This document shows positions 17,482 to 27,805 of a stretch of DNA of 64,000 bases, piece after piece. This DNA is from a virus: positions 124,001 to 188,000 of IMG/VR virus record IMGVR_UViG_3300044701_002789; one strand, given 5' to 3'. A program made the translations under genes and the position numbers. Each line of letters starts with the position of its first letter. Position 1 is the first letter of the stretch. The notes beneath the pieces were generated by a model, which ran no database searches, was not told where the DNA came from, and saw nothing but the letters and a program-made list of their open reading frames with translations.

Positions 17482-17667
17482 TCAATGGGATGAGTTCAGC
17501 GCGATTTCCCGGTCTATGGTCACTTCCTCATAAGAGAGATCTGGACAGTCTGACAACAATTCTCCAAGGCGATTTAAGGCAATCCAAGTAGTATTGAACT
17601 CTTCCTCCTTCAGAGAATGATAAATGCAACTGTCTTTCACGTAGATGTGATAAAGTTTTTCAATCAT
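17482..17667 (-). CDS. Hypothetical protein (61 aa)
   Basis: 61 aa, MIEKLYHIYVKDSCIYHSLK to the C-terminus. It resembles small phage proteins that begin with a beta strand and continue with SLKEEEFNTTWIALN-like text. No function recognised. Starts 5 nt after the next upstream gene's stop. Confidence 0.7.
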   Translation of the reverse strand: MIEKLYHIYVKDSCIYHSLKEEEFNTTWIALNRLGELLSDCPDLSYEEVTIDREIALNSSH

Positions 17668-17672
17668 TTGAT

Positions 17673-17834
17673 TTACTTCGTCAGTGCATTATATATCATT
17701 ACTAATAAGATTCCGAGAGGGATTCCAATGATCCTAAACATTTGCTTAGGATAGCGTATTAACCAACCGGCAAATACTACTTTCCAAAAATTCCAATATG
17801 GCGGATTTTTTCTGGGAGAATTTTTTTTATACAT
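17673..17834 (-). CDS. Small membrane protein (53 aa)
   Basis: Read from ATG 17834 (MYKKNSPRKNPPYWNFW) to TAA at 17673. A basic Pro/Asn-rich head is followed by one membrane segment (MFRIIGIPLGILLVMIYN). This type of 50-aa protein is familiar from cyanophage genomes. Function unknown. Confidence 0.7.
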   Translation of the reverse strand: MYKKNSPRKNPPYWNFWKVVFAGWLIRYPKQMFRIIGIPLGILLVMIYNALTK

Positions 17835-17919
17835 CGGATTTTACTTGGGGGGAATTTTTATACCTCGGAGGATTTTTTGTTTCTTGTGAGTCTTATAGAA
17901 CTAGCGTGGGTCAGAGTTG

Positions 17920-17985
17920 TTATAGATTAGGGTAGTTGAACGTTTTTCAATCGCTAGGCGCGACCCATAAGGCGCCCTTATCCAT
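17920..17985 (-). ncRNA. RNA element copy 7 (most divergent)
   Basis: The minus strand carries GGGTCGC, then GATTGAAAAACG, then ACTACCCT over about 40 nt, the core order found in six other copies (19.4, 20.4, 21.8, 22.8, 24.3, 27.0 kb). The GGGT/ACCC ends can pair. No box was found. It lies in the 250-nt gene-free stretch 17835-18082. Confidence 0.35.
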
Positions 17986-18047
17986 CGGCATACTGTCGAT
18001 AAGCACGGTTAATAGGTGTCATTTAGCACGTACACATAAAGTATAGA

Positions 18048-18074
18048 GAAAGGGGGAGAGACTGTCCCTCCCCC
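18048..18074 (-). terminator. Terminator-like hairpin after the DUF6011-type gene
   Basis: Minus strand GGGGGAG ... CTCCCCC stem followed by a short TTTCTC tail, 9 nt past the stop at 18083. Confidence 0.6.
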
Positions 18075-18082
18075 GGTATACC

Positions 18083-18832
18083 TCACCATCCGAACTTGTC
18101 GGCACAGATAGGACCAATCCCCCGCTCAATGCTCTCCGGATTCGTTAGTTCCCGCCCACAGCATGAGCACTCCCCGGATACCTTACCGTAGCGAATCGCT
18201 GCGGTGAGGGGATCGGACGCTGCCGCCATGATGATCGCTTTGACATCATCGGGCAGGCGCGAATCCAGCGCCTTTCGGGTAACTTTACCCAGGTACTTGG
18301 GTTGGATTCCGTAGTTCCCTTCCTCAGTCTCAGTCTGAGATGTAACCCACAGCGCAGACATGTCGCGGTTGGGTTTCACATTAACCCCGGCGAATCGCAG
18401 GGTCAAACGCTTAGCACCCTTGCTACGTGCTGCCTCGAAAGCATTAAACAGTGCCTCAAACATGGAGAGGTCAGCATCATTCACCTTAGCAACATTCTGC
18501 TGCTTTTTAACATTATCCACGGCAAGTTTATGTGCCCAGGCATACTGAGATGCGCTCAGACGATTAAACTTAGCGGCAAGATCTTGTGCAAATTGTGAAC
18601 GCTGACCGCGAAGGGATTGCAGCACCTCAGCATCACTCAGATCAGAGGTAAAGTTAATCAAACCGTCGCGGCGGGTTGTTACACTAAACTGCTGCACTTT
18701 ACGATCCTCACACTGCGCCAGATCGTGCTCAAGATTAGCTGCCGCCTGAGGATTAGTACCGTGCAGACCGCGCAGCACCCGCTCCAGCAGGGCGTCAGTT
18801 TCGTTATGGCGGGCGGTGGTGGCGGTAGTCAT
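18083..18832 (-). CDS. DUF6011-type zinc protein (249 aa)
   Basis: Start taken at ATG 18832 (MTTATTARHNETDALLERVL) because it follows a 5' leader shared with the gene at 18930-19229. A longer frame would swallow that leader and the promoter. The C-terminus SGECSCCGRELTNPESIERG followed by IGPICADKFGW is the CxxC ... GPxC zinc motif of DUF6011-like phage proteins. The middle is helical and Ala/Lys rich, with a GAKRLTLRFAGV segment. Function unknown. The gene is GC-rich compared with the rest of the phage. Confidence 0.8.
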   Translation of the reverse strand: MTTATTARHNETDALLERVLRGLHGTNPQAAANLEHDLAQCEDRKVQQFSVTTRRDGLINFTSDLSDAEVLQSLRGQRSQFAQDLAAKFNRLSASQYAWAHKLAVDNVKKQQNVAKVNDADLSMFEALFNAFEAARSKGAKRLTLRFAGVNVKPNRDMSALWVTSQTETEEGNYGIQPKYLGKVTRKALDSRLPDDVKAIIMAAASDPLTAAIRYGKVSGECSCCGRELTNPESIERGIGPICADKFGW

Positions 18833-18888
18833 AACCCTGGAACCGGTGGGGGATTCGGCGCTCCCCCGTTGCGCTTGATGACATCCTA
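18833..18888 (-). promoter_or_regulatory. Structured 5' leader, copy A
   Basis: The minus-strand leader has a GGGGGA ... TCCCCC hairpin, then ACCGGTTCCAGGGTT and the ATG. It shares a 34-nt identical block with the leader at 19215-19248. The hairpin arms differ between copies but keep pairing. Confidence 0.6.
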
Positions 18889-18942
18889 GACGATCGCGGG
18901 GCACCCCGGAGGGTGCCCGTTACAATCGTTCACACTTCCTCA
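18883..18942 (-). promoter_or_regulatory. Box/hairpin/-10 cassette (variant box) for 18083
   Basis: Minus -10 TAGGAT (18883-18888), 30-bp gap holding hairpin GGGCACCC ... GGGTGCCC, then a variant box, GTTACAATCGTTCACA on +, at 18919. Confidence 0.6.
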
Positions 18943-19229
18943 GGGATCGCCTGCAGGCGCCCATCCTGGCGAGCGCGGGCGATCATCCGCCCCAGCGACT
19001 CGCCTCGCAGGTCAGTGTACCCGAGAACGTCAAACAGATCCGCCGTAAAGGCGGGGTCGGCGTCGAACCCGTAGGCGCGGGTCGGGTTGCGGTGGAAGAT
19101 CACCTCAACGAACCCAGGGGCGCCCGTGAGCACGCTGCCGGGTTCGACGTGCAGGTTGCGGATCGCGCTGCTCTCCGCCTCGCTGAAGGTGCGATAGAAG
19201 GCGCCGGAGAGAACGGTGGCGGTAGTCAT
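18930..19229 (-). CDS. KTSC-like small protein (99 aa)
   Basis: Start at ATG 19229 (MTTATVLSGAFYRTF), after the leader shared with 18083-18832. FVEVIFHRNPTRAYGF and the ending SLGRMIARARQDGRL fit the layout of KTSC-like domains (beta strands, then S-x-G near a terminal helix). The ending also matches the protein at 25778 (SVGSLVFNARRSGEL), so the two are probably paralogues. Function unknown. Confidence 0.65.
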   Translation of the reverse strand: MTTATVLSGAFYRTFSEAESSAIRNLHVEPGSVLTGAPGFVEVIFHRNPTRAYGFDADPAFTADLFDVLGYTDLRGESLGRMIARARQDGRLQAIPEEV

Positions 19230-19285
19230 AACCCTGGAACCGGTGGGGCATTCGTGCGCTGCCCCGTTGCGCTTGATAGAAGTGT
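19230..19285 (-). promoter_or_regulatory. Structured 5' leader, copy B, with -10 TACACT
   Basis: Same leader as copy A: GGGGCA ... TGCCCC hairpin, ACCGGTTCCAGGGTT, ATG. CCCGTTGCGCTTGAT is shared at the far end. TACACT just upstream is a plausible -10. Confidence 0.6.
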
Positions 19286-19359
19286 ACAGGATCGGGGGGA
19301 CCATCGGACGCCCGTAGGGTGAGGGTTAGGTGAAAGTTTCCTGAAAGTTCTAGGTGAAG

Positions 19360-19448
19360 ATTTAACCATTAAAGGCAGGCAGGGGAAGTGGCGACCTTTT
19401 GCGTCATCGGGGCGACCCTGCCCCTCTCCCTGTTGTCCTCTCAGTCTA
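19360..19448 (-). ncRNA. RNA element copy 6 (minus orientation)
   Basis: After a TAGACT hexamer (19443-19448, as in copy 1) the minus strand reads GGCAGGGTCGCC, GATGACGCAAAAGGTCGCCA, CTTCCCCTGCC. GGCAGGG and CCCTGCC pair perfectly. It resembles copy 4 most closely. Most copies lie on +, so this inverted copy argues for an element defined by its own sequence. Confidence 0.5.
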
Positions 19449-19486
19449 CAGGATGGGGGGACCGTTGCCGATCCCCGATGGACACC

Positions 19487-19696
19487 TCACCGATTGGCAC
19501 GGCGGCGGCGCAGTTCGTCGCCGTAGGTACACGCCTCGTCGCTGTAGCGTCCCTCAGCGATCGGGTTCCACCCGCGCATAGCCGCCTCCGCCTGGCGGGC
19601 GTCACGGGCGCTGTAGAGCAGCTCTTCGTCGCTCATCGTCTTCGCTCGCGCCTCCCAGCGGGTAAAGTCGGCGGCGGTGGCGTGGTTGGCGATCAT
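19487..19696 (-). CDS. Conserved hypothetical protein (69 aa)
   Basis: MIANHATAADFTRWEARAKT, then MSDEELLYSARDARQAEAAM and GRYSDEACTYGDELRRR. This is a familiar small phage family (MSDxELxYSAxDAxxAxxA ... YxDEAxxYxxELxRR). Likely helical. GC-rich, single-gene unit with its own cassette. Confidence 0.75.
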   Translation of the reverse strand: MIANHATAADFTRWEARAKTMSDEELLYSARDARQAEAAMRGWNPIAEGRYSDEACTYGDELRRRRANR

Positions 19697-19720
19697 GGTT
19701 CGCTTGCGGTTGACTCTGGA

Positions 19721-19774
19721 ATTGTAGCATGGCGGAGGGCACCCCGGAGGGTGCCCCGTAACCTTTGTTCACAA
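19721..19774 (-). promoter_or_regulatory. Box/hairpin/-10 cassette (variant box) for 19487
   Basis: -10 TACAAT (19721-19726), 31-bp gap with hairpin GGGCACCC ... GGGTGCCC, variant box, GTAACCTTTGTTCACA on +, at 19758. Confidence 0.6.
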
Positions 19775-19960
19775 TGCCTCGGAATCCGGCAGGATGCCCC
19801 AGACGATTTCAAACCCGCCGATGTCGGAATCGCTCAGGCGGTTGACGCCCAGGTAGGCGCTGCCGATGCTCACGGCGAGCACCTCATCCCGCAGGCGGGC
19901 GCGGGTGTTGATCGAAACGTAGAAAGCGCGGCGCAGGATGCTGGGCGTGCGGATGATCAT
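19769..19960 (-). CDS. Hypothetical protein (63 aa)
   Basis: Start at ATG 19960 (MIIRTPSILRRAFYVSINTR), which places it after the -10 at 19984. Contains ARLRDEVLAVSIGSAYLGV. No domain recognised. GC-rich. Confidence 0.6.
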   Translation of the reverse strand: MIIRTPSILRRAFYVSINTRARLRDEVLAVSIGSAYLGVNRLSDSDIGGFEIVWGILPDSEAL

Positions 19961-19983
19961 GGCGGTGCGTTGATTGCTTGTGG

Positions 19984-20017
19984 ATCGTAGCATGGCGGGG
20001 GACCCGCTGTGGGTCCC
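19984..20017 (-). promoter_or_regulatory. -10 plus hairpin, no clear box
   Basis: -10 TACGAT (19984-19989) preceded by hairpin GGGGACCC ... GGGTCCCC. The region where a box should be is GAGGATCTCAGGCGGTC and does not match. Confidence 0.45.
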
Positions 20018-20027
20018 CTAGAGGATC

Positions 20028-20216
20028 TCAGGCGGTCATCTGATCATACCGGATCCACTGACCGTTGACGTAGCACTCTACAACCGGGAGATACCCCAGA
20101 ACAGGAGCGAGGGCGGTTGCTGCCGCCGCTGCCATCGTCGGGGTCTCAAACTTCGCCTCCATTGAGAACCCGTGCTGCAGGCGGGCGTAGAAGCGGGGGG
20201 TGATGTTGAGTGCCAT
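20028..20216 (-). CDS. Hypothetical protein (62 aa)
   Basis: MALNITPRFYARLQHGFSME, then an Ala-rich helix and VECYVNGQWIRYDQM. Unknown family. Its own weak -10 candidate (TATAGG) is upstream. Confidence 0.65.
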   Translation of the reverse strand: MALNITPRFYARLQHGFSMEAKFETPTMAAAAATALAPVLGYLPVVECYVNGQWIRYDQMTA

Positions 20217-20341
20217 AGCGGAGTGTCGCGTGTTGACCCCTATAGAATCCCACGGATCGGTGCCCGCGTCAACCCCCGAACGATCAGCAACGCTTATCAG
20301 TCACAATGAGTCACAATGCCACGGTGGCGCCCATGATGCGC

Positions 20342-20459
20342 TAGACTATGGACACAACGGAAGAAGAGCGGGGGCGCCGCGATGATACAAAACAAGTAAC
20401 CTACCCTGCCTGCAAATAATGGTTCATAAAGTATAAAAAAAGGAGGCATTTCTGCCTCC
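20342..20459 (+). ncRNA. RNA element copy 1
   Basis: TAGACT (20342-20347) followed by GGACACAACGGAAGAAGAGC, GGGGGCGCCGCGATGATAC, then CTACCCTGC and a GGAGGCA...TGCCTCC hairpin shared with a minus terminator. The 5' and 3' ends can pair (GCGGGG with CCCTGC). This copy alone also has a 23-codon reading frame starting MDTTEEERGRRDDTK; other copies break it, so RNA is more likely. Confidence 0.5.
20433..20459 (-). terminator. Intrinsic terminator after 20472
   Basis: Minus: GGAGGCAGAAATGCCTCC followed by seven T, directly after the stop region of the 20472 gene. Confidence 0.85.
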
Positions 20460-20471
20460 GGTTGATTATAC

Positions 20472-20693
20472 TCAGGGGGTGGGATCGTAACCGTCCACCG
20501 CTTCATTGACAGCGGCGCTAGGTGTCATCCCTTTGTTGTAGGAATCAACCAGACAATCAAGGCACCAACCATCATCGGGGCATCCCATGATGTGCTCGAT
20601 GTAACTATCGCCCATGATGTAGTCGTATGCTTCGTTCCACCAGGCGGGGAAGTTGGCATCATCAAAGCAGGTCTCAGTGGTGATCTGGGTCAT
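20472..20693 (-). CDS. Hypothetical protein (73 aa)
   Basis: Start at ATG 20693 (MTQITTETCFDDANFPAWWN) because the promoter lies at 20722-20782. Contains CPDDGWCLDCLVDSYNKGMT with three Cys, which may bind metal. Acidic. Unknown family. Confidence 0.7.
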   Translation of the reverse strand: MTQITTETCFDDANFPAWWNEAYDYIMGDSYIEHIMGCPDDGWCLDCLVDSYNKGMTPSAAVNEAVDGYDPTP

Positions 20694-20721
20694 CGGGGTT
20701 CTCCCTTTGGTTGACTTGTCC

Positions 20722-20782
20722 ATTGTAGGGCATGGGGAGGCATCCTGTCGCCTCCCCTTGTGCAGGTTCACAAACCGTCACA
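20722..20782 (-). promoter_or_regulatory. Box/hairpin/-10 cassette for 20472
   Basis: -10 TACAAT (20722-20727); 31-bp gap with GGGGAGGC ... GCCTCCCC; box 20759-20782 is nearly a perfect dyad, TGTGACGGTT-TGTG-AACCTGCACA on minus. Confidence 0.75.
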
Positions 20783-21026
20783 GCATGGAAACTAGGCGCA
20801 TGAGACTGGATACCTGCACCGGAGTCTGCCATGGCATAATTTCATCCAGCATGTTGCCGCTTGGGCGTATAATTGCCACCTCAAAAGTATCCTGCCCGAT
20901 TGTACCCTTAAGACCGGAACCTTCGGGTCCAGAAACTACAGAAACTCCCCAACCATTGTCAAAGGTACGCTGAGCGATTGTAGCACCTTTGAGACTATGA
21001 TCGCGGAAGGTGAGAGTGGAGAACAT
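20778..21026 (-). CDS. Hypothetical protein (82 aa)
   Basis: MFSTLTFRDHSLKGATIAQR, then FDNGWGVSVVSGPEGSG and EVAIIRPSGNMLDEIM. A beta-rich small protein of unknown function. The 3' end overlaps the box of the next cassette. The ATG follows a GTTCACC leader. Confidence 0.65.
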   Translation of the reverse strand: MFSTLTFRDHSLKGATIAQRTFDNGWGVSVVSGPEGSGLKGTIGQDTFEVAIIRPSGNMLDEIMPWQTPVQVSSLMRLVSML

Positions 21027-21054
21027 GGTGCGGTTCGGGTGGTGAACTGAAAGA

Positions 21055-21115
21055 ATTGTAGGGCATGGGAGGGGGGATCGGTGTCCCCCCTTGTGACAGT
21101 TTCAGCGTTGGAACT
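21055..21115 (-). promoter_or_regulatory. Box/hairpin/-10 cassette for 20778
   Basis: -10 TACAAT (21055-21060); 31-bp gap with GGGGGGA ... TCCCCCC; box from 21092 (TGTGACAGTT on +) containing the upstream gene's stop. Confidence 0.7.
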
Positions 21116-21275
21116 GTGCCATGCTGCTGGGGGCGATGTGGGCGGGCGATCCGCAGGAGCGATAAAATCCTACCATACGCTGCGCCTCCTGAACAGTGGG
21201 GAACCACTGGGAGCGCCACTGGCAGTCCCCGTAGGGGACTTGATAGCGAACCTCAATCCTCATCGGTGTCTGCAT
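21102..21275 (-). CDS. Hypothetical protein (57 aa)
   Basis: Start at ATG 21275 (MQTPMRIEVRYQVPYGDCQW), downstream of the -10 at 21297; an ATG four codons in is an alternative. SQWFPTVQEAQRMVGFYRSC follows. Looks like a small beta-alpha phage protein. Unknown function. Confidence 0.65.
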   Translation of the reverse strand: MQTPMRIEVRYQVPYGDCQWRSQWFPTVQEAQRMVGFYRSCGSPAHIAPSSMAQFQR

Positions 21276-21296
21276 GGGTTGGTTGCGACTGGATAC

Positions 21297-21356
21297 AGTG
21301 TAGGGCATGAGAGGGCAGGATCGCTGCCCCCAGTGGACACCTAGGCGACTGTCACA
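21297..21356 (-). promoter_or_regulatory. Box/hairpin/-10 cassette for 21102
   Basis: -10 TACACT (21297-21302); 30-bp gap with GGGGCAGCGATCCTGCCC hairpin; box 21333-21356 reads TGTGACAGTC on minus. Confidence 0.7.
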
Positions 21357-21670
21357 AGGTCACGCCAGGCGCCATAAGTTTCTGACACATTCTCCAGAAA
21401 CTTAATCACTGCAGGATAAACCTCACAGCGCACCCAAGTATAAGAAACTGAAAGAAAGTTCCAAACTTTCTTGATAATCTGAAGGGTAGCATCTTTGCCA
21501 CCATTCTGATACCATTCTTGTGTTTTCTTGAAGATGACATAAACAATGGCGGCGATTGTGAGGCACACGGTTTCTACCGTGTCCATGTAGTTGTTGAAAT
21601 GTTTCTGATAGTTAATGCTCTTAAGATGAGCGATCAGAGCATCAGCGGGGGGGAAGGCGGGGGAGTTCAT
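21341..21670 (-). CDS. Hypothetical membrane-anchored protein (109 aa)
   Basis: Start taken at ATG 21670 (MNSPAFPPADALIAHLKSIN), because the -10 is at 21720 and the longer frame would run through it. One hydrophobic stretch (ETVCLTIAAIVYVIFKKTQ) at residues ~37-55, then a charged tail with SYTWVRCEVYPAVIKFL. Unknown family. Confidence 0.65.
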   Translation of the reverse strand: MNSPAFPPADALIAHLKSINYQKHFNNYMDTVETVCLTIAAIVYVIFKKTQEWYQNGGKDATLQIIKKVWNFLSVSYTWVRCEVYPAVIKFLENVSETYGAWRDLVTVA

Positions 21671-21719
21671 GATCTTAGGCGACGGGGGGGAATGTAGAGC
21701 GGTGCCCGTCGTTGAAACT

Positions 21720-21816
21720 ACCATAACCGACAGGGAGGCATCCTGCCAAGGGGTCTTGTGCCACCGCTCAGACTGTCCACCTGATGCCACGCTGGGGTCT
21801 GATGGGGTGCTATGAT
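21720..21816. promoter_or_regulatory. Bidirectional cassette: one box, two -10s
   Basis: Box 21757-21780 (TGTGCCACCG-CTCA-GACTGTCCAC). Minus -10 TATGGT at 21720-21725 (gap 31) serves 21341. Plus -10 TATGAT at 21811-21816 (gap 30) serves RNA copy 2. Confidence 0.75.
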
Positions 21817-21822
21817 TGTCTC

Positions 21823-21930
21823 ACAAGCGAAGAAGAGCGGGGGCGCCGCGATGATACAAAACAAGACACTTACCCTGCTCGTAAATAATAGGATCTTAAG
21901 TATAAAAAAATGGAGGCATTTCTGCCCCCA
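21823..21930 (+). ncRNA. RNA element copy 2
   Basis: After TATGAT the + strand reads GAAGAAGAGCGGGGGCGCCG, CGATGATACAAAACAAGACA, CTTACCCTGC and ends in a GGAGGCA ... TGCC hairpin. Identical to copy 1 over a long core. No in-frame ATG exists for the reading frame seen in copy 1. Confidence 0.55.
21904..21930 (-). terminator. Intrinsic terminator after 21941
   Basis: Minus: GGGGGCAGAAATGCCTCC-type hairpin (one mismatch) followed by seven T. Confidence 0.8.
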
Positions 21931-21940
21931 TAAGTTATAA

Positions 21941-22261
21941 TCAGCGAAGAATCATTCCTGATACAAAATCCTCCACAATTCCATCATGTTTGATCTTCCA
22001 TTGAAAGTCTTTCTGATAGACTTTCTTATCACCGCAACCATTCTCAGAAAGAATAGCATTCAGGCGGGACTTTGTGGTGGTTGTCTGATGTCCGCCATCA
22101 TAAAGTTTCAGGAAACCTTCTCCAATCTCAGCGATCAGGTTTCCATAAAGAAACACTCGTGAGATCTCATTTCCTGCTTCATACTCTACACGAGTGTTTG
22201 CAGATTTCCAATCGTAACGATTGGAAATCGCTTTGTTCATTTTGCGTTCGATGACTCGCAT
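21941..22261 (-). CDS. Conserved hypothetical protein (106 aa)
   Basis: MRVIERKMNKAISNRYDWKS, then NTRVEY, VFLYGNLIAEI, LYDGGHQTTTTKSRLNAIL and a C-terminal VYQKDFQWKI. The TTTTKSRLNAIL block is a signature of a common small phage family found in aquatic phages. Function unknown, probably a small nucleic-acid or regulatory protein. Confidence 0.8.
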   Translation of the reverse strand: MRVIERKMNKAISNRYDWKSANTRVEYEAGNEISRVFLYGNLIAEIGEGFLKLYDGGHQTTTTKSRLNAILSENGCGDKKVYQKDFQWKIKHDGIVEDFVSGMILR

Positions 22262-22287
22262 GGGGTGAATCCCTCAGGAACAGATCT

Positions 22288-22349
22288 AAGATAGCAGGGG
22301 GAGGGGGGGTTTCGCAACCCCCCGGTGTGTCAGTTGTCGGATTGGTCGG
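22288..22349 (-). promoter_or_regulatory. Box/hairpin/-10 cassette for 21941
   Basis: -10 TATCTT (22288-22293); 32-bp gap with GGGGGGTTGCGAAACCCCCC-type hairpin; box from 22326 (TGTGTCAGTT on +), overlapping the stop of the winged-helix gene. Confidence 0.65.
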
Positions 22350-22635
22350 ATTGGTCGGATTGGTCGGATTGGTCAGACCGGACCAGGATAGCAGCGACCA
22401 GGCGGTCCCGCTTGCGGATCGCGGTGGGAACCATTTCCCACTTGTGACGCTTGCCATTGGCGCTACGGGTGGCGCTCAGGATGCCTGCATCCTCCATGTC
22501 CACCATCAGGGCATGGATGGTGCCCTTGTGACGCTTCGGGTCCAGTCCCAGATCCCGCACCAGTTCGGAGCAGGTCTTAGAACCGGTCTGAATCAGGTGG
22601 GAGCGGATGCTGGTGCGGATGATGCTGGAAAGCAT
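22330..22635 (-). CDS. Winged-helix DNA-binding protein with SDQ repeat tail (101 aa)
   Basis: Start at ATG 22635 (MLSSIIRTSIRSHLIQTGSK), downstream of the -10 at 22660. TCSELVRDLGLDPKRHKGTI followed by HALMVDMEDAGILSATR and GKRHKWEMV has the spacing of a winged-helix domain (recognition helix, then wing). The C-terminus is a repeat SDQSDQSDQSDQSDN encoded by tandem 9-bp units GGATTGGTC (22336-22375). A transcription regulator is the most natural reading, and it is a candidate for the factor binding the repeated box. Not proven. Confidence 0.7.
   Translation of the reverse strand: MLSSIIRTSIRSHLIQTGSKTCSELVRDLGLDPKRHKGTIHALMVDMEDAGILSATRSANGKRHKWEMVPTAIRKRDRLVAAILVRSDQSDQSDQSDQSDN
22336..22375 (+). 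repeat. Tandem 9-bp repeat (GGATTGGTC)
   Basis: About four and a half tandem copies inside the 3' end of the winged-helix gene. They encode (SDQ)n and are prone to copy-number change. Confidence 0.9.
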
Positions 22636-22659
22636 GGGGTGTTCGTGTGAACTGAAAGA

Positions 22660-22755
22660 ATCATAGGGCATGGGATGCCACCAGGCAACCACTCCTGACC
22701 AGTTCCCAAACTGGCACACCAGACCCCACACCTGACCCCATCCATGCCTTATACT
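22660..22755. promoter_or_regulatory. Bidirectional cassette: one box, two -10s
   Basis: Box 22695-22718 (CTGACCAGTT-CCCA-AACTGGCACA). Minus -10 TATGAT at 22660-22665 (gap 29) serves the winged-helix gene. Plus -10 TATACT at 22750-22755 (gap 31) serves RNA copy 3. Confidence 0.75.
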
Positions 22756-22761
22756 ATGGGG

Positions 22762-22868
22762 ACAATGAAACGAACGGGGGCGCCGTGATGATACAAAACA
22801 AGACACTTACCCTGCACGCAAATAATAACAACAAAAGTATAAAAAAAGGGAGAGGATTTGCCTCTCCC
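22762..22868 (+). ncRNA. RNA element copy 3
   Basis: Core ACGGGGGCGCCGTGATGATA, CAAAACAAGACACTTACCCT, GC; ends at the GGGAGAGG ... CCTCTCCC hairpin. A 2-nt length difference from copy 1 destroys the short reading frame while the core is kept. Confidence 0.55.
22841..22868 (-). terminator. Intrinsic terminator after 22875
   Basis: Minus: GGGAGAGGCAAATCCTCTCCC followed by seven T. Confidence 0.9.
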
Positions 22869-22874
22869 AATTAT

Positions 22875-22994
22875 TCATGATTCCTCTTCGTCGTTTATCA
22901 TAACTTGGAAGAGTTCGGCAAGTTCATCATCGCTCATGTCGCTGATAATGATGTATCCTTGCTCTTCAATTTGCTGTTTCAGATCAAAGATCAT
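22875..22994 (-). CDS. Small acidic protein (39 aa)
   Basis: Start at ATG 22994 (MIFDLKQQIEEQGYIIISDM) after a CAGTTCACCACCGAAC leader hairpin; TACACT upstream at about 23020 is the -10. Acidic helix MSDDELAELFQVMINDEEES at the end. Unknown function. Confidence 0.65.
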   Translation of the reverse strand: MIFDLKQQIEEQGYIIISDMSDDELAELFQVMINDEEES

Positions 22995-23034
22995 GAGAGG
23001 TTCGGTGGTGAACTGCAGATAGTGTAGCAGACGA

Positions 23035-23178
23035 TCAGCGGCAGTCGCGGGATGCTTCACAGATCGTAACAGCAACCCGGTCGGCATGTGCCTTGGCAAC
23101 CTGAAGGGCAGACAAACCCAGACCGCTGCCAATGTAGAGCAGGGAACCGATCAGGAGGATGTTAGGGAGGCGTCGCAT
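23035..23178 (-). CDS. Small membrane or exported protein (47 aa)
   Basis: Read from ATG 23178 (MRRLPNILLIGSLLYIGSGL) to TGA 23035. An Arg-Arg start followed by a hydrophobic stretch looks like a signal anchor. Two Cys near the end (ICEASRDCR). Preceded by the CAGTTCACCACTGAAC leader hairpin directly at the ATG. Unknown. Confidence 0.65.
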   Translation of the reverse strand: MRRLPNILLIGSLLYIGSGLGLSALQVAKAHADRVAVTICEASRDCR

Positions 23179-23200
23179 GGTTCAGTGGTGAACTGAGAGG

Positions 23201-23260
23201 ATTCTAGGGCATGGGGACCGTTCCCGGTCCCCTTTGGTGGTCACTTTGCAAACAGTCTCC
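23201..23260 (-). promoter_or_regulatory. Box/hairpin/-10 cassette for 23035
   Basis: -10 TAGAAT (23201-23206); 30-bp gap with GGGGACCG ... CGGTCCCC; degenerate box from 23237 (GTGGTCACTTTGCAAACAGT). Confidence 0.55.
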
Positions 23261-23429
23261 GAAACGCTCCAGCAATCTCCCAAGACTTTAGAATCTGAGG
23301 TTGACCATGAATCAAAACCATTTCCTGATGATTGTAAAGAACCCAGGAGATTTGATCCTTTGGATCTTTATCTTTGTCTTCCAACTTACAGCAAGTTGCG
23401 TAAGTTCTTACCAGTTGTGTGAGAGACAT
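23241..23429 (-). CDS. Hypothetical protein (62 aa)
   Basis: MSLTQLVRTYATCCKLEDKD, KDQISWVLYNHQEMVLIHGQ and EIAGAFRRLFAK. Preceded by the CAGTTCACCACCTGAAC leader hairpin and a TAAGAT/TATAAG -10 candidate at about 23456, with no recognisable box. Unknown family. Confidence 0.65.
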   Translation of the reverse strand: MSLTQLVRTYATCCKLEDKDKDPKDQISWVLYNHQEMVLIHGQPQILKSWEIAGAFRRLFAK

Positions 23430-23516
23430 TGTGGTTCAGGTGGTGAACTGAGATAATCTTATACGGTGTGGGATCTTATGTCAAGGGTTTTCTGATAAGG
23501 ATCTCTTATGATAGGA

Positions 23517-23549
23517 AAGGGGGCATAAGATTGCCCCCTATTCCTTATC
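23517..23549 (-). terminator. Hairpin after 23550
   Basis: Minus: AGGGGGCAATCTTATGCCCCCT stem, extended by AAGGAAT / TTTCCT. The T-run is short, so termination is likely but not certain. Confidence 0.5.
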
Positions 23550-24077
23550 TCAGTCCGCCCAACGGATGCCCTTGATCTCAAGATACTCCACCAAACGTGT
23601 AGCGTATTCGCCACAGTGAGGGCAACGGATTTCATGCCGAACGATAGCACGATCCTTGGACTTATCTGCAGGATTATTATAGTTCTTCATTTTGAGGCGA
23701 TAGATTGCGGCAAGAGTGCGCAACAGTTCTTCGATCTTAAGATCCTTTCCGCGATACTTGAAGTAAACGGGGATGAAGTGGCGGAAGTCATTCATCCGGC
23801 GGCACTTGTCAAGTTGAGAAACAATCCAACGCGACTCATCAATGTCGCCCAGGATCTCATTCAGGCAAACCTCAAACGCTGCGTTCGTTGTTTCAATCAC
23901 AGCAACATTTTGTCCGATTTCTTTCATGCGCTCATCATAACGCTGTTGCTGAACAGAAGAAACCTGATCATCAAAAGAAACCTTACGCTGCTCCATGTGT
24001 TGCTGCATGAGCACCATAAGGGCACGCATCTGATCGTCGTTGAAACCGTCAAAGTTGAGAGCAGTGGCGGCAGGCAT
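23550..24077 (-). CDS. Hypothetical protein with C-terminal CxxC (175 aa)
   Basis: Start at ATG 24077 (MPAATALNFDGFNDDQMRAL), downstream of the -10 at 24138. A helical N-terminal half (MVLMQQHMEQRKVSFDDQV) is followed by ESRWIVSQLDKCRRMNDFRH and a C-terminal CPHCGEYATRLVEYL that may bind zinc. Function unknown. Confidence 0.7.
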   Translation of the reverse strand: MPAATALNFDGFNDDQMRALMVLMQQHMEQRKVSFDDQVSSVQQQRYDERMKEIGQNVAVIETTNAAFEVCLNEILGDIDESRWIVSQLDKCRRMNDFRHFIPVYFKYRGKDLKIEELLRTLAAIYRLKMKNYNNPADKSKDRAIVRHEIRCPHCGEYATRLVEYLEIKGIRWAD

Positions 24078-24137
24078 GGTAGACTCTGGGATTGGGTTTG
24101 CTGGCGGTCGGGGTGTTTCCCTCCCGCCGATGCACAT

Positions 24138-24233
24138 AGTATGCCACGGGGGAACCCACCCCAGCAACCAGGATTGTGCCACTGCCCAAACCGTCCTCAG
24201 GTGGCACAGCAGACCCCCATCATGCCCTATACT
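24138..24233. promoter_or_regulatory. Bidirectional cassette: one box, two -10s
   Basis: Box 24175-24198 (TGTGCCACTG-CCCA-AACCGTCCTC). Minus -10 CATACT at 24138-24143 (gap 31) serves 23550. Plus -10 TATACT at 24228-24233 (gap 29) serves RNA copy 4. Confidence 0.7.
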
Positions 24234-24239
24234 ATGGGG

Positions 24240-24345
24240 ACAACGGAATGAGGAGCAGGGTCGCTCTGATGACATAAAAGGTCGCCACTTACCCTTCTTT
24301 ATTATAATTATTACAAAAGAATAAAAAAGAACCCCGAAGGGTTCT
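24240..24345 (+). ncRNA. RNA element copy 4
   Basis: Core AGGGTCGCTCTGATGACATA, AAAGGTCGCCACTTACCCTT; the ends AGGGT and ACCCT pair. Ends at the GAACCC ... GGGTTC hairpin. It is the link between the + copies and the minus-strand copy 6. Confidence 0.55.
24323..24345 (-). terminator. Intrinsic terminator after 24355
   Basis: Minus: AGAACCCTTCGGGGTTCT followed by six T. Confidence 0.9.
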
Positions 24346-24354
24346 TTATAAGAA

Positions 24355-24513
24355 TCAGACTTCATCGGTTGGGTCTAAGATCTCTACCCATGCGTTAGGA
24401 TAGCGTTCTGCCCAATAATCATACCGATCATCAGCATCATCATAGGTGCCGAAAGTTTCCAGAATCTTGAAGTTTTCGTTCTCAAACTTGGCGATCTTAA
24501 AGAGTTTTGCCAT
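24355..24513 (-). CDS. Hypothetical protein (52 aa)
   Basis: Start at ATG 24513 (MAKLFKIAKFENENFKILET), following the CAGTTCACCACAGAAC leader. DADDRYDYWAERYPNAWVEI is typical of small phage proteins that report DxYxxxxPxAWVEI. Unknown function. Confidence 0.7.
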   Translation of the reverse strand: MAKLFKIAKFENENFKILETFGTYDDADDRYDYWAERYPNAWVEILDPTDEV

Positions 24514-24538
24514 GGGAGTTCTGTGGTGAACTGAGAGA

Positions 24539-24598
24539 ATTGTAGGGCATGGGGGTGATCCTGTCACCCCCTAGTGTGCCAGTGGTCAGACCGTCACA
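24539..24598 (-). promoter_or_regulatory. Box/hairpin/-10 cassette for 24355
   Basis: -10 TACAAT (24539-24544); 30-bp gap with GGGGGTGACAGGATCACCCC hairpin; box 24575-24598 (TGTGCCAGTG-GTCA-GACCGTCACA). GTGACA 17 bp from the -10 could act as a -35. Confidence 0.75.
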
Positions 24599-25341
24599 GT
24601 TTTCTTACTGTAACCTCCGAACTGTTTGTTAGAACGACGGGCACGGATTGCGGCGCCCCATTCTGAACCTTTCGGTTGCGTGCCATGCACAAGCAAAGCG
24701 AACGGTTTATCACCGAAGCAGTGTGAATCATCGTGGTCAACTTCCAGACCCAGACGTTCAGCGTCCGCATCATTCATGCAGACTTTGCTATAACGTGGGA
24801 AGTAACCTTCGTCGATCAGGTAATCAAACCGACCACCATACGATGCGGTCATGTAGAAGTTACTGGGCAACTTGAAGTTAAGAAACAACCGCAGACTCTT
24901 AGAGTAGCAGTAGAACTTAAGATCAGGATTGCGATGGGCAACCTCAATCCATGCGTCAAGATACGCACCAGAGAAGAAGTCTCCAGACTCATGAATGCGC
25001 ACCAATTCTGTTTTCTTAGTGCGATGATGTTGGATGCTGTCGTGGATAAGATCCGCAGCACTGACAGAGTAACCTGGGACAGTTCCGTTCTGCAGAGCAT
25101 CAACAATCAACTCCAGATTGCGGGCGCGATTGTTGAAGACAGCATCATACTGCACCTCAGAAGATGCAGCGAAACACCGAAACTCAGTGTGTTCGCCATC
25201 AACAATCCTACGCTTTCCGTCGTCACCAACGACAGCAAAAGACTTGCAAAACATTGCACCGGGGCATGTCTTACCTGCAGGCAGGTTGAAGATCAGCGTG
25301 TGAGTGCCAAGTTTGGCGTTGCCTTTGGAGAAGTTCAGCAT
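24586..25341 (-). CDS. GP88-domain protein (251 aa)
   Basis: MLNFSKGNAKLGTHTLIFNL, PAGKTCPGAMFCKSFAV and EFRCFAASSEVQYDAVFNNR match the Gene Product 88 (GP88) domain known from mycobacteriophages and many aquatic phages. Conserved Cys residues at ~26 and ~32 and in RCFAAS, plus HESGDFFS and KFYCYSKSL later, suggest a radical-SAM-like or metal-binding fold has been proposed; the biochemical role is not established. It is GC-rich relative to the phage core. The stop lies in the box of the neighbouring cassette. Confidence 0.85.
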   Translation of the reverse strand: MLNFSKGNAKLGTHTLIFNLPAGKTCPGAMFCKSFAVVGDDGKRRIVDGEHTEFRCFAASSEVQYDAVFNNRARNLELIVDALQNGTVPGYSVSAADLIHDSIQHHRTKKTELVRIHESGDFFSGAYLDAWIEVAHRNPDLKFYCYSKSLRLFLNFKLPSNFYMTASYGGRFDYLIDEGYFPRYSKVCMNDADAERLGLEVDHDDSHCFGDKPFALLVHGTQPKGSEWGAAIRARRSNKQFGGYSKKTVTV

Positions 25342-25365
25342 CGGAGGAATCCCGTTGACTTGATC

Positions 25366-25426
25366 AGTATAAGGGGTGAGAGGGCACCCTTGCGAGTGCC
25401 CTTGTGCCAGTGGTCAGACCGTCCAG
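25366..25426 (-). promoter_or_regulatory. Box/hairpin/-10 cassette for GP88 gene
   Basis: -10 TATACT (25366-25371); 31-bp gap with AGGGCACTCGCAAGGGTGCC hairpin; box 25403-25426 (TGTGCCAGTG on +). Confidence 0.75.
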
Positions 25427-25698
25427 TTCAGCACTTGACCACGGTAGGCAATCCGACGCACACGGTTAGCGTCAAAGGAACGCCATGCACCGATTCCGTC
25501 ACGTTTCGCAACATCAAAGTCGCGAACACGGAAGATGTCAGGATTATTGCTAGGGCGACCAGTGCCCACAATCTCCTGGCGATCTTTAGGATTAAAACGA
25601 ATCTTCCGAAGCGTACCATCACGCTTCACAAACTCTACAGAAACAATGGTAGAACCTAGAGTAGAAAAGAGTTCGCGGATCTGTTCGGAGCGAGTCAT
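25414..25698 (-). CDS. SH3-beta-barrel-like small protein (94 aa)
   Basis: MTRSEQIRELFSTLGSTIVS, VEFVKRDGTLRKIRFNPKDR, then IFRVRDFDVAKRDGIGAWRS and RVRRIAYRG. The order (VSVxFxKxDGxxRKxR ... V.D ... WRSF) is that of the phage proteins annotated as SH3 beta-barrel fold-containing. Likely a small nucleic-acid-associated barrel. Preceded by the GTTCACCACTGAAC leader. Confidence 0.7.
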   Translation of the reverse strand: MTRSEQIRELFSTLGSTIVSVEFVKRDGTLRKIRFNPKDRQEIVGTGRPSNNPDIFRVRDFDVAKRDGIGAWRSFDANRVRRIAYRGQVLNWTV

Positions 25699-25722
25699 GA
25701 GAGTTCAGTGGTGAACGATGTA

Positions 25723-25782
25723 AATGTAACAGGGCACCTGACCGGAATCAAGTGCCCTTGTGCCACCTGTCAAAGTGTCAGA
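25723..25782 (-). promoter_or_regulatory. Box/hairpin/-10 cassette for 25414
   Basis: -10 TACATT (25723-25728); 30-bp gap with AGGGCACTTG ... CAGGTGCCCT hairpin; box from 25759 (TGTGCCACCT on +). Confidence 0.7.
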
Positions 25783-26029
25783 CTGTCGCTTCCTTCAGTT
25801 CACCGGAACGGCGAGCATTAAAGACAAGCGAACCAACGCTAGCACCCTGCGCAAGAGTGTCGTTAAGTTTAGTTACGAAACTGCCAGAAGTGCTGACATA
25901 GGTGTAACTTTTGTCGGGATTGGTCTGATAGGCAAGTTCTACCCGATCAGACTGACTGGTAGCACTAATGCTAGCAATCGCCTCAGATTCTTCAGTTGTA
26001 AATGTGCGGTTAATAACAATCATATTCAT
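25778..26029 (-). CDS. KTSC-like small protein (83 aa)
   Basis: Start at ATG 26029 (MNMIVINRTFTTEESEAIAS); ATG 26023 is the alternative. RVELAYQTNPDKSYTYVSTS followed by GASVGSLVFNARRSGEL resembles KTSC-like domains and the 18930 protein. Begins 3 nt after the previous stop, so it is co-transcribed with 26032. Confidence 0.65.
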   Translation of the reverse strand: MNMIVINRTFTTEESEAIASISATSQSDRVELAYQTNPDKSYTYVSTSGSFVTKLNDTLAQGASVGSLVFNARRSGELKEATV

Positions 26030-26031
26030 AC

Positions 26032-26193
26032 TCAAAAGTCAATGTAATCAGTTTCAGTAGTTGTACCTGCAGCGACAAGTTCGCCGCCTTCAGTTTCCTC
26101 ATTCATATCTTCCGCGATGCTATCAAGCACAGAGAGAATGTCGTTACCAGTGTTACACTGGTTAAGCATGATCTCAGCAATGGTGAAGTTCAT
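26032..26193 (-). CDS. Hypothetical acidic protein (53 aa)
   Basis: Read from ATG 26193 (MNFTIAEIMLNQCNTGNDIL) to TGA 26032. Continues SVLDSIAEDMNEETEGGEL and ends TETDYIDF. Acidic helical protein, a common type in these phages. First gene after the promoter at 26252. Confidence 0.7.
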   Translation of the reverse strand: MNFTIAEIMLNQCNTGNDILSVLDSIAEDMNEETEGGELVAAGTTTETDYIDF

Positions 26194-26251
26194 AATAAAA
26201 ACAAAGGGTTTTCTGATGTGTGCAGTTTATAGTCTTACTCAGGACTATCAA

Positions 26252-26311
26252 ATCTTACAGCACATCAGGATCTTATGTCAAGTCTGATGTGCCAGTTTCT
26301 TATGTGTCACA
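26252..26311 (-). promoter_or_regulatory. Box/-10 cassette for 26032
   Basis: -10 TAAGAT (26252-26257); 30-bp gap; box 26288-26311 (TGTGCCAGTT-TCTT-ATGTGTCACA), both TGTG and CACA ends intact. Confidence 0.7.
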
Positions 26312-26504
26312 CCTTAAGATCCATGATCTCAAGAAACTGCATTCTGATAGGTTCACCATTGACAGTGAAGAAAACAGAACATCTGTCAATCTCAATGTCA
26401 CCATCAACAACACTAAGATCAACATAATGCCCACCATCATTATCAGAAATGTAAGGATTACCTTCAGTTTCATACCCAACATAGTAAAGGGTATCATTGA
26501 CCAC
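26307..26504 (-). CDS. Hypothetical protein, start uncertain (65+ aa)
   Basis: GTG 26504 gives 65 aa (MVNDTLYYVGYETEGNPYIS ... EIMDLKV). The open frame continues 23 codons upstream to about 26573 with protein-like text (NLKYPDSVQKFHDLLGDSYA) but no ATG, GTG or TTG, and overlaps the end of the upstream gene in another frame. Either a rare start (CTG), a translational frameshift from the upstream gene, or a degraded start. Confidence 0.55.
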   Translation of the reverse strand: MVNDTLYYVGYETEGNPYISDNDGGHYVDLSVVDGDIEIDRCSVFFTVNGEPIRMQFLEIMDLKV

Positions 26505-26550
26505 TACAGCATAAGAATCCCCAAGAAGATCATGGAACTTCTGAACAGAA

Positions 26551-26739
26551 TCAGGATACTTCAGATTCGGTGGTCACAGTCTCATCAGTGGACGGTTTCA
26601 CAGGTGGCACACGGAGATTATAAGGACTGTTAAAAAACCTCCTAAAAGAAGTGACCAGAATAATACCCGTTGAAAGAACACCAATAAACCCAAGGATGGT
26701 AACAGCATTACCAGTGAAATCAAGAGTGTCAGGCATCAT
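26551..26739 (-). CDS. Small membrane protein (62 aa)
   Basis: MMPDTLDFTGNAVTILGFIG, VLSTGIILVTSFRRFFNSPY: one membrane segment, then a Pro/Thr/Glu tail. Start overlaps the upstream stop (TGATGATG). Confidence 0.65.
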   Translation of the reverse strand: MMPDTLDFTGNAVTILGFIGVLSTGIILVTSFRRFFNSPYNLRVPPVKPSTDETVTTESEVS

Positions 26740-26879
26740 CAGAATTCGTAAGAGGAATCAAGGGGAAGACCAGCGGCAAGATCATCATAATAATCTTCCA
26801 CTTCAAACTTAGTTTCTTCATCATCCCAATCATAAGGAATGACTTCTTCAATCTGCTGTTCAGCAACAAATGGGTCCAT
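26739..26879 (-). CDS. Hypothetical acidic protein (46 aa)
   Basis: Start at ATG 26879 (MDPFVAEQQIEEVIPYDWDD) because the -10 lies at 26903. Very acidic, with EVEDYYDDLAAGLPLDSSYE. Unknown. Confidence 0.65.
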   Translation of the reverse strand: MDPFVAEQQIEEVIPYDWDDEETKFEVEDYYDDLAAGLPLDSSYEF

Positions 26880-26902
26880 GTCGGTGATTTGCGGACGAAT
26901 CA

Positions 26903-26997
26903 AATATACCCCATCAGAACCCAACCACACAATACCCCTTGTGCCACTGAACAATCTGACCACTGATCACCCCATCAGACATCAGATCCCTTATGAT
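26903..26997. promoter_or_regulatory. Bidirectional cassette: one box, two -10s
   Basis: Box 26940-26963 (TGTGCCACTG-AACA-ATCTGACCAC). Minus -10 TATATT at 26903-26908 (gap 31). Plus -10 TATGAT at 26992-26997 (gap 28) serves RNA copy 5. Confidence 0.7.
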
Positions 26998-27003
26998 ATA
27001 CAC

Positions 27004-27114
27004 ATAATCTGATGAGGTCTGGGGTAGGACTTATGATGTAAACAGTCGTAACTTACCCTGCTTAATAATAATCATAAGAATATAAAAAAAGAGTTGGGTA
27101 TAATAACCCAACTC
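27004..27114 (+). ncRNA. RNA element copy 5
   Basis: Core GGGGTAGGACTTATGATGTA, AACAGTCGTAACTTACCCTG; GGGTA/TACCC ends pair. Ends at the GAGTTGGG ... CCCAACTC hairpin. More diverged than copies 1-3. Confidence 0.45.
27083..27114 (-). terminator. Intrinsic terminator after 27122
   Basis: Minus: GAGTTGGG TTATTATA CCCAACTC followed by seven T. Confidence 0.9.
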
Positions 27115-27121
27115 ATTCATA

Positions 27122-27382
27122 TCAGGCAATCTGAACACATGCACCTTTTCTTAGTTGAGTGTATGTATTATACGGGTTCTTACCATCATATCCAGAATTG
27201 TAATGATGAATGCCATAATAATAACGGCGTGCATTGGTTTCAGTCATACCAAACTGCTCTCCCATTTCCCGGAAGGATGCTTTAGGATGTTCTTTCCTGT
27301 AATGATTCAGGACACTACACCACATCAAGGCATTTTCAGTGCAGCGAATGCTTTTCTCCGGGTGAAGTTTAATGGTTTTCAT
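27122..27382 (-). CDS. Helix-turn-helix DNA-binding protein (86 aa)
   Basis: MKTIKLHPEKSIRCTENALM leads to ASFREMGEQFGMTETNARRY YYGI, with the helix-turn-helix spacing (EMGEQFGM-TETNARRYY). A short basic tail follows (QLRKGACVQIA). A small phage transcription regulator is likely, and it is a second candidate for the box-binding factor. It has its own cassette. Confidence 0.7.
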   Translation of the reverse strand: MKTIKLHPEKSIRCTENALMWCSVLNHYRKEHPKASFREMGEQFGMTETNARRYYYGIHHYNSGYDGKNPYNTYTQLRKGACVQIA

Positions 27383-27405
27383 GAGGTTCTGATGTGAACA
27401 GTAAT

Positions 27406-27464
27406 AAGATAACAGAGATCAGGATGCTTGTGGAGTCTTATGTGCCAGTTTGGAAACTGGTACA
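27406..27464 (-). promoter_or_regulatory. Box/-10 cassette for the HTH gene
   Basis: -10 TATCTT (27406-27411); 29-bp gap; box 27441-27464 is a near-perfect palindrome (TGTGCCAGTT-TGGA-AACTGGTACA) and lies inside the 3' end of the upstream gene. Confidence 0.75.
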
Positions 27465-27805
27465 AGACCATAATCACGAATCATAACATCCCTCACTATT
27501 TCCCTATCGTAAGAATCACCACAGAAGTCAACATTCTCAGTCTTAAGATATTTTGCTGTTGCTTCCATGATCTGATCCATTGTTGCACCCATATCATAGA
27601 TGCCACTCTTACCATAGAAACTGAACACATAAGAATAGAAGAGATTCATTCTCTTAGTCTCTTCTGATTCCTTATGCTCATTCAGTTTCCTTTTGATGGA
27701 AATGGCAAGCTGTTCATTCTTACCATTGAACATAATACCCAGATTCTTATTGTCAAAGAGATCAATAAGACCAATCATCAGTTCAGACTCTTCAATGGAA
27801 AACAT
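27419..27805 (-). CDS. Hypothetical protein (128 aa)
   Basis: MFSIEESELMIGLIDLFDNK, GIMFNGKNEQLAISIKRKLN, then DQIMEATAKYLKTENVDFCG. A mixed helical protein of unknown family. Its C-terminus reads through the box palindrome (VPVSKLAHKTPQAS). -10 candidate TTATACT lies about 150 nt upstream at 27950. Confidence 0.65.
   Translation of the reverse strand: MFSIEESELMIGLIDLFDNKNLGIMFNGKNEQLAISIKRKLNEHKESEETKRMNLFYSYVFSFYGKSGIYDMGATMDQIMEATAKYLKTENVDFCGDSYDREIVRDVMIRDYGLVPVSKLAHKTPQAS

Follow-up and report, generated by a model that had tools for sequence, protein, structure and literature searches.

What are the short structured sequences that recur between the early genes of a T4-like cyanophage, and at what level do they act: as DNA, as parts of their neighbours' messages or as RNAs in their own right? 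We addressed this question in IMG/VR virus record IMGVR_UViG_3300044701_002789, a contig of 258,362 bases from a T4-like cyanophage, using the 64,000-nucleotide (nt) stretch from base 124001 to 188000, referred to here as the window. The gp6 protein (baseplate wedge) of the contig shares 59% identity with its counterpart in Synechococcus phage B23, and other T4-like cyanophages also match; a psbA-family gene is encoded in the same contig, away from the window. A preliminary description of the window had proposed a seven-copy family of small RNAs. Our results lead us to favour a free-standing, early, trans-acting family of structured small RNAs of T4-like cyanophages that probably bind protein, a reading based on sequence comparison to which we would assign a probability of about 0.42.

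The core that recurs in the window proved to be real. The pattern GGG-N4-C-N3-GATGA-N3-AAAA-N7-C-N-T-N-CCC, with at most three mismatches, matches the window five times, compared with a mean of 0.02 matches in 100 shuffles, none of which reached five. Six copies were detected by a covariance model (R1), built from copies of the window and of relatives, that contains only the outer stem of the preliminary description and no isolate sequences: c2 on the minus strand and c3, c4, c5, c6 and c7 on the plus strand, with expectation values (E) of 9e-12 to 6e-8. These six copies were in the training set of R1, so the test against chance is the comparison of the pattern with the shuffles. Five plus-strand and two minus-strand copies had been claimed. 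All five on the plus strand stand, as does c2, but the other minus-strand candidate (c1, at 17.9 kb) was excluded because the models do not find it: R1 gave no match there even when run unfiltered with hits admitted up to E = 5, models of the two classes described below (R2 for class A, R3 for class B) did not pick it up in this genome either, and c1 is without the -10 box of the others.

Evidence that the copies act as RNA comes from a 5' hairpin of 4-5 bp, S1, the sole helix with strong covariation. In alignments that are themselves fitted to S1, 99.7% of 330 class B cells are paired, with 91 double-change cells against 18.8 in shuffles, and 100% of class A cells are paired, with 26 double-change cells against 10.0. 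Structure-blind MAFFT alignments of sequences trimmed around S1 (A4 and A5) also gave 100% pairing, which none of 500 shuffles equalled, and an arm-swap test gave 0 of 5000. Compensation can be seen even inside the window, where ACGG/CCGT in c5 compares with GCGG/CCGC in c4, and GGAGC/GCTCT in c6 with GGGGC/GCCCC in c2. S1 contains 53 G-U pairs and no A-C pairs across the family, which points to action as RNA, and as RNA of this strand.

The preliminary description had staked its proposal in part on covariation beyond chance. Such covariation is present, but in S1 and not in the terminal GGG/CCC stem in which pairing was said to be kept through changes: across the family, 79.2% of the cells of that stem are paired, compared with 79.3% in shuffles. 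Minimum-energy folding alone often favours the nested GGG/CCC stem, which accounts for the earlier reading. This extended stem, GCRGGG/CCCTGC, was rejected, as its column 6 covaries with the S1 partner (35 double changes) and not with the tail. Neither a hairpin within the class A linker and tail (CAGGA/TCCTG, in B23-type folds) nor helices internal to the class B linker did better than shuffles in swap tests. Similarly, a small peptide gene was discarded: the frame is not kept, in c3, c6 and c7 the ATG within GATGA runs into a stop immediately or a few codons later, and the linkers of the two classes differ by one base.

Downstream of its 5' arm, S1 closes on a loop of the type RGGGUA, AGGGUC or GGGCG, or on a purine tetraloop, and in most copies the loop is complementary to the tail. 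The purine-rich loop and the downstream tail thus probably form an H-type pseudoknot through a second helix, S2, although this is less certain than S1. Swapping loops and tails gave a significant 0 of 3000 in class A, where the rows are related, and a non-significant 291 of 2000 for 24 copies of both classes. In some phages the class A loops are not G-rich (AAAA, AGAA). The linker is A-rich and conserved and ends in CAC, with conservation within each class (ACAAAACARGACACTT; CATCGCCACCG); the tail is pyrimidine-rich, ends in CCUGC and is followed by a conserved AU-rich stretch, AUAAAAUAAU. In one subclass (L108:1888, L109:1798, L114:1722, L117:6065, L119:4678, L205:2059 and L278:8550) S1 and the linker are kept, and GGGGCAGCC, GAGGCAGCC or GGGAGCAGCC replaces CCCCTGCC as the tail.

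Each unit appears to carry its own promoter. A -10-like TANNNT lies at -30 to -16 from S1 in 84 of 89 non-redundant copies, compared with 6 of 89 in a control window. In the window these early-type boxes (TAGACT, TATACT or TATGAT) are found about 24 nt upstream of S1, in agreement with the box promoter previously noted before most plus-strand copies. From the usual -10 spacing, we infer a transcription start some 12 nt ahead of S1, where a conserved ACAA would open a leader of that length. Most plus-strand copies had also been said to end at a hairpin. Where present, such a hairpin lies a median of 30 nt further on, but for the most part it serves the convergent minus-strand gene as its intrinsic terminator, since the RNA strand is A-rich before it and only weakly T-rich after it. 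The hairpin behind c3 (Table 1) is perhaps also an RNA end.

Table 1. Copies, -10 boxes and related features, in window coordinates.
Feature	Position	Strand	Details
Copy c2, class B	19378..19424	-	S1 GGGGC/GCCCC, loop AGGGTC, tail CCCT; R1 E 9.4e-12; R3 match
c2 -10 box TAGACT	19443..19448	-	Seen in sequence; placed as in 84/89 copies
Copy c3, class A	20367..20410	+	S1 GCGG/CCGC, loop GGGCG, tail CCC; R1 E 2.6e-10; R2 match
c3 -10 box TAGACT	20342..20347	+	Seen in sequence
Copy c4, class A	21836..21879	+	S1 GCGG/CCGC; R1 E 3.3e-11; R2 match
c4 -10 box TATGAT	21811..21816	+	Seen in sequence
Copy c5, class A	22773..22816	+	S1 ACGG/CCGT, compensatory relative to c3 and c4; R1 E 9.7e-10; R2 match
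c5 -10 box TATACT	22750..22755	+	Seen in sequence
Copy c6, class B	24252..24298	+	S1 GGAGC/GCTCT, compensatory relative to c2; loop-tail AGGGT/ACCCT; R1 E 4.3e-11; R3 match
c6 -10 box TATACT	24228..24233	+	Seen in sequence
Copy c7, class B, divergent	27015..27062	+	S1 AGGTC/GACTT, loop-tail GGGTA/TACCC; R1 E 5.8e-8; R3 match
c7 -10 box TATGAT	26992..26997	+	Seen in sequence
Hairpin behind c3 (example)	20442..20459		A-run before, no T-run after on +; terminator for the convergent gene, which ends at 20472 on the minus strand
Candidate c1, rejected	17920..17972	-	No match to R1 (filters off), R2 or R3

Covariance searches of other cyanophages, as the preliminary description had proposed, found the family in the isolates B23, S-SRM01 and DSL-LC03 and in many IMG/VR contigs, further contigs having been gathered by exact pattern scans of IMG/VR. 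At E < 1e-5, R2 gave 34 matches and R3 gave 90, a total of 124 from 72 sources, some of which are near-identical contigs. Isolate copies partly trained R2 and R3, and their scores in the isolates are therefore not independent; those of R1 are. The R1 matches in B23, DSL-LC03 and S-SRM01 are weak yet consistent, with 11 of 11 rows on the minus strand and the genes on the plus strand, the weakest rows being individually insecure. All ten supported copies in these isolates fall within gaps between annotated genes. Searches with R2 and R3 gave no convincing copy in Sf-FR1, S-CRM01, S-PM2, Bellamy, S-SM2 or S-B05, and a plasmid search gave no family copies. Among 84,980 bacterial and archaeal genomes, the pattern of one subclass had 26 matches, which we take to be unrelated chance occurrences: no source is titled as a cyanobacterium, and no match has the family promoter and tail. 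By eye, a divergent copy that R1 misses can be seen at L018:3411-3455 (S1 GGGA/TCCC, loop CGGGAA, tail CCC), with the convergent arrangement of the other copies. Taken as a whole, the sequence comparisons give good support to a widespread family of predicted small structured RNAs with their own promoters in T4-like cyanophages.

The units have a fixed genomic address, where they are interspersed with early genes that run on the opposite strand. The gene for gp6 could be placed in 18 records; the 48 copies in these are found 3.6-12.9 kb away from it, on its 5' side, and 47 of them are on the other strand. Likewise, the annotated genes beside the copies in B23, S-SRM01 and DSL-LC03 are on the other strand, and in the window the next gene after every plus-strand copy faces it, an arrangement other than that of a riboswitch or 5' leader. 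The 86 genes that face copies fall into 43 clusters. Since these convergent neighbours are unrelated, the copies are not a cis element of one gene, and the RNA is conserved whichever gene lies next to it.

These results are consistent with a model whereby host RNA polymerase would transcribe the RNA early in infection, to an end at or near the terminator of the opposing gene, giving a molecule of perhaps 100 nt. Its action would then be in trans, the likeliest mode being that it binds a protein of the host or the phage and serves as regulator, decoy or inhibitor. Dosage could come from the presence of several diverged copies, and classes A and B may have different partners. Action in trans is argued from the combination of an own promoter with a conserved RNA beside unrelated genes, and the motifs that distant phages conserve in the loop, the linker and the tail would be best fitted by a protein partner, with pairing to a fixed host RNA next. 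Several observations weigh against this model. S2 is conserved in class B without covariation, and the B-type copies L108, L109, L114, L117, L119 and L205 are without the CCC tail. No U-tract terminator of the RNA's own is visible behind the copies. Finally, no binding partner was found, the proteins neighbouring the copies yielding only GP88 and a GDSL lipase; defence-system profiles run on the proteins neighbouring the B23 copies gave no match.

One might instead suppose that the units work in cis, the promoter and structure marking or regulating a transcript that runs against the neighbouring gene and spreading in the manner of the promoter early stem-loop (PeSL) cassettes of T4-like phages. 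Indeed, every unit has a promoter and abuts a terminator, and comparable junctions differ: in L018 and S-SRM01 a copy follows GP88, whereas in the window none does, and at one junction the window and L044 have a class A copy where the L108 group has class B. On any reading, then, the unit behaves as a cassette that can be acquired, lost or swapped while its RNA stays conserved. However, a PeSL does not require a conserved RNA core of 45 nt, the G-U covariation speaks for selection on the RNA, and the unrelated neighbours make a gene-specific role in cis improbable, so that we regard this cis-acting explanation as unlikely. Far less likely is a replication primer or origin element, in which the structured RNA and the AT-rich stretch that follows would start R-loop replication, as with T4 oriF or ColE1 RNA II. 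Clustering at a fixed address and the conserved AT-rich stretch would fit such a role, but the cluster shows no clear switch in GC skew, as judged within the window, and the class A loops of some phages, such as AAAA and AGAA, are not G-rich.

Action in trans need not involve a protein. If the single-stranded linker and tail paired with host or phage messages, S1 merely stabilising the 5' end, the linker would be conserved within each class as a seed, as is observed; yet the best duplexes with gene starts of the window are no better than those of shuffled RNA, and two classes with different linkers coexist. We consider such a base-pairing RNA about as improbable as the cis-acting cassette. Somewhat more doubtful is a phage-borne mimic of type III toxin-antitoxin RNA, in which solitary pseudoknots like CptI or ToxI neutralise a host endoribonuclease toxin. 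A core of about 45 nt with two short stems, a very short first loop and a long A-rich loop recalls the description of CptI, phages that gain a pseudo-ToxI are known to escape (PMC5086642), and the copies are multiple and early. Against this, the pseudoknot itself is only probable, neither a nearby toxin gene nor a repeat array was found, and the copies are not tandem repeats, being single, at least hundreds of bases apart and each with its own promoter. The ToxN profile (PF13958) was above cut-off in 0 of 15 records, the CptN and TenpN profiles not having been run separately. Its matches below cut-off cross stop codons and were rejected, consisting of a short annotated protein plus non-coding DNA. 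The broader idea of an RNA-only counter-defence, in which solitary pseudoknots amplified and diversified at one address would neutralise a host RNA-binding defence protein, for example a type III toxin, is in our view similarly doubtful. Returning to a trans-acting, probably protein-binding RNA, the presence of the family in the named phages B23, S-SRM01 and DSL-LC03 makes its expression and function directly testable. Should the RNA bind a host protein, it would point to RNA-based takeover or disarming of cyanobacteria.

Several other features of the region were apparent. Positions 17500-27500 of the window form a G+C-rich island that reaches 0.58-0.60. Between 18 and 27 kb the G+C content is 0.43-0.58, compared with 0.25-0.44 outside this part of the window, and the trend is the same in relatives. 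The island, marked by the RNA copies, holds small, mostly minus-strand early genes, and the flanking genes have a G+C content of about 0.26-0.36. PeSL-like joints, in which a stem-loop is directly followed by the early promoter of the next minus-strand gene, occur at 23200-23260, 24530-24570 and similar junctions, next to which a TTGTGCCAGTGGTCAGACCGTC-like motif recurs. In or beside a minus-strand gene, positions 22330-22375 hold the short tandem repeat GTCGGATTG. Elsewhere, in the record of L112 (G006:C1:92691-94718), matches to the photosystem reaction-centre family PF00124 are fragmented, and one fragment has a TAG in frame, which suggests that the genes are interrupted by introns or broken.

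How, then, does the family compare with known systems? As the preliminary description had surmised, Rfam holds no family with this pattern: Rfam 15 gave no match in the window above the gathering cut-off, and permissive searches gave none overlapping a copy. The passages found in the S-SRM01 genome paper (PMC8557907) make no mention of these elements. The family is thus new relative to Rfam, although, the literature comparison being partial, it may have been described before. The cyanophage RNAs named in the papers found are CfrI, PhotoRC-II, wcaG, manA and the glutamine riboswitch, and none fits. The last four are, like the present family, structured RNAs of T4-like cyanophages, but they are described as cis elements of 5' untranslated regions and have no Rfam match in the window, whereas the copies have no downstream gene on the same strand. 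CfrI (PMC9602691), an antisense RNA whose sequence complements the 3' end of psbA in the T4-like cyanophage S-PM2, is likewise small and likewise opposes the 3' end of an adjacent gene; the present copies, in contrast, face unrelated genes, and their structured core lies outside them, in the gap, in many copies. PeSL cassettes, as described in Arbiol 2010 and Comeau 2014 (cited in PMC4503421), also repeat an early promoter and stem-loop between small early genes and are linked to module shuffling. By that description, however, a PeSL joins a terminator to the promoter of the next gene, whereas the promoter and hairpin of the present units point against the genes, with a covarying RNA core behind the promoter. 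In CptI antitoxins, which are described as pseudoknots, the first loop is a single base and the second is long and rich in adenine (PMC5086642); the family shares with ToxI and CptI a short H-type layout (probable here), an A-rich long loop and, as for CptI, a length of about 45 nt, but it has dispersed promoters of its own in place of tandem repeats and a toxin gene. Few cyanophage non-coding RNAs have been described, and the present family stands beside them as one that is conserved, multi-copy and held at a fixed locus.

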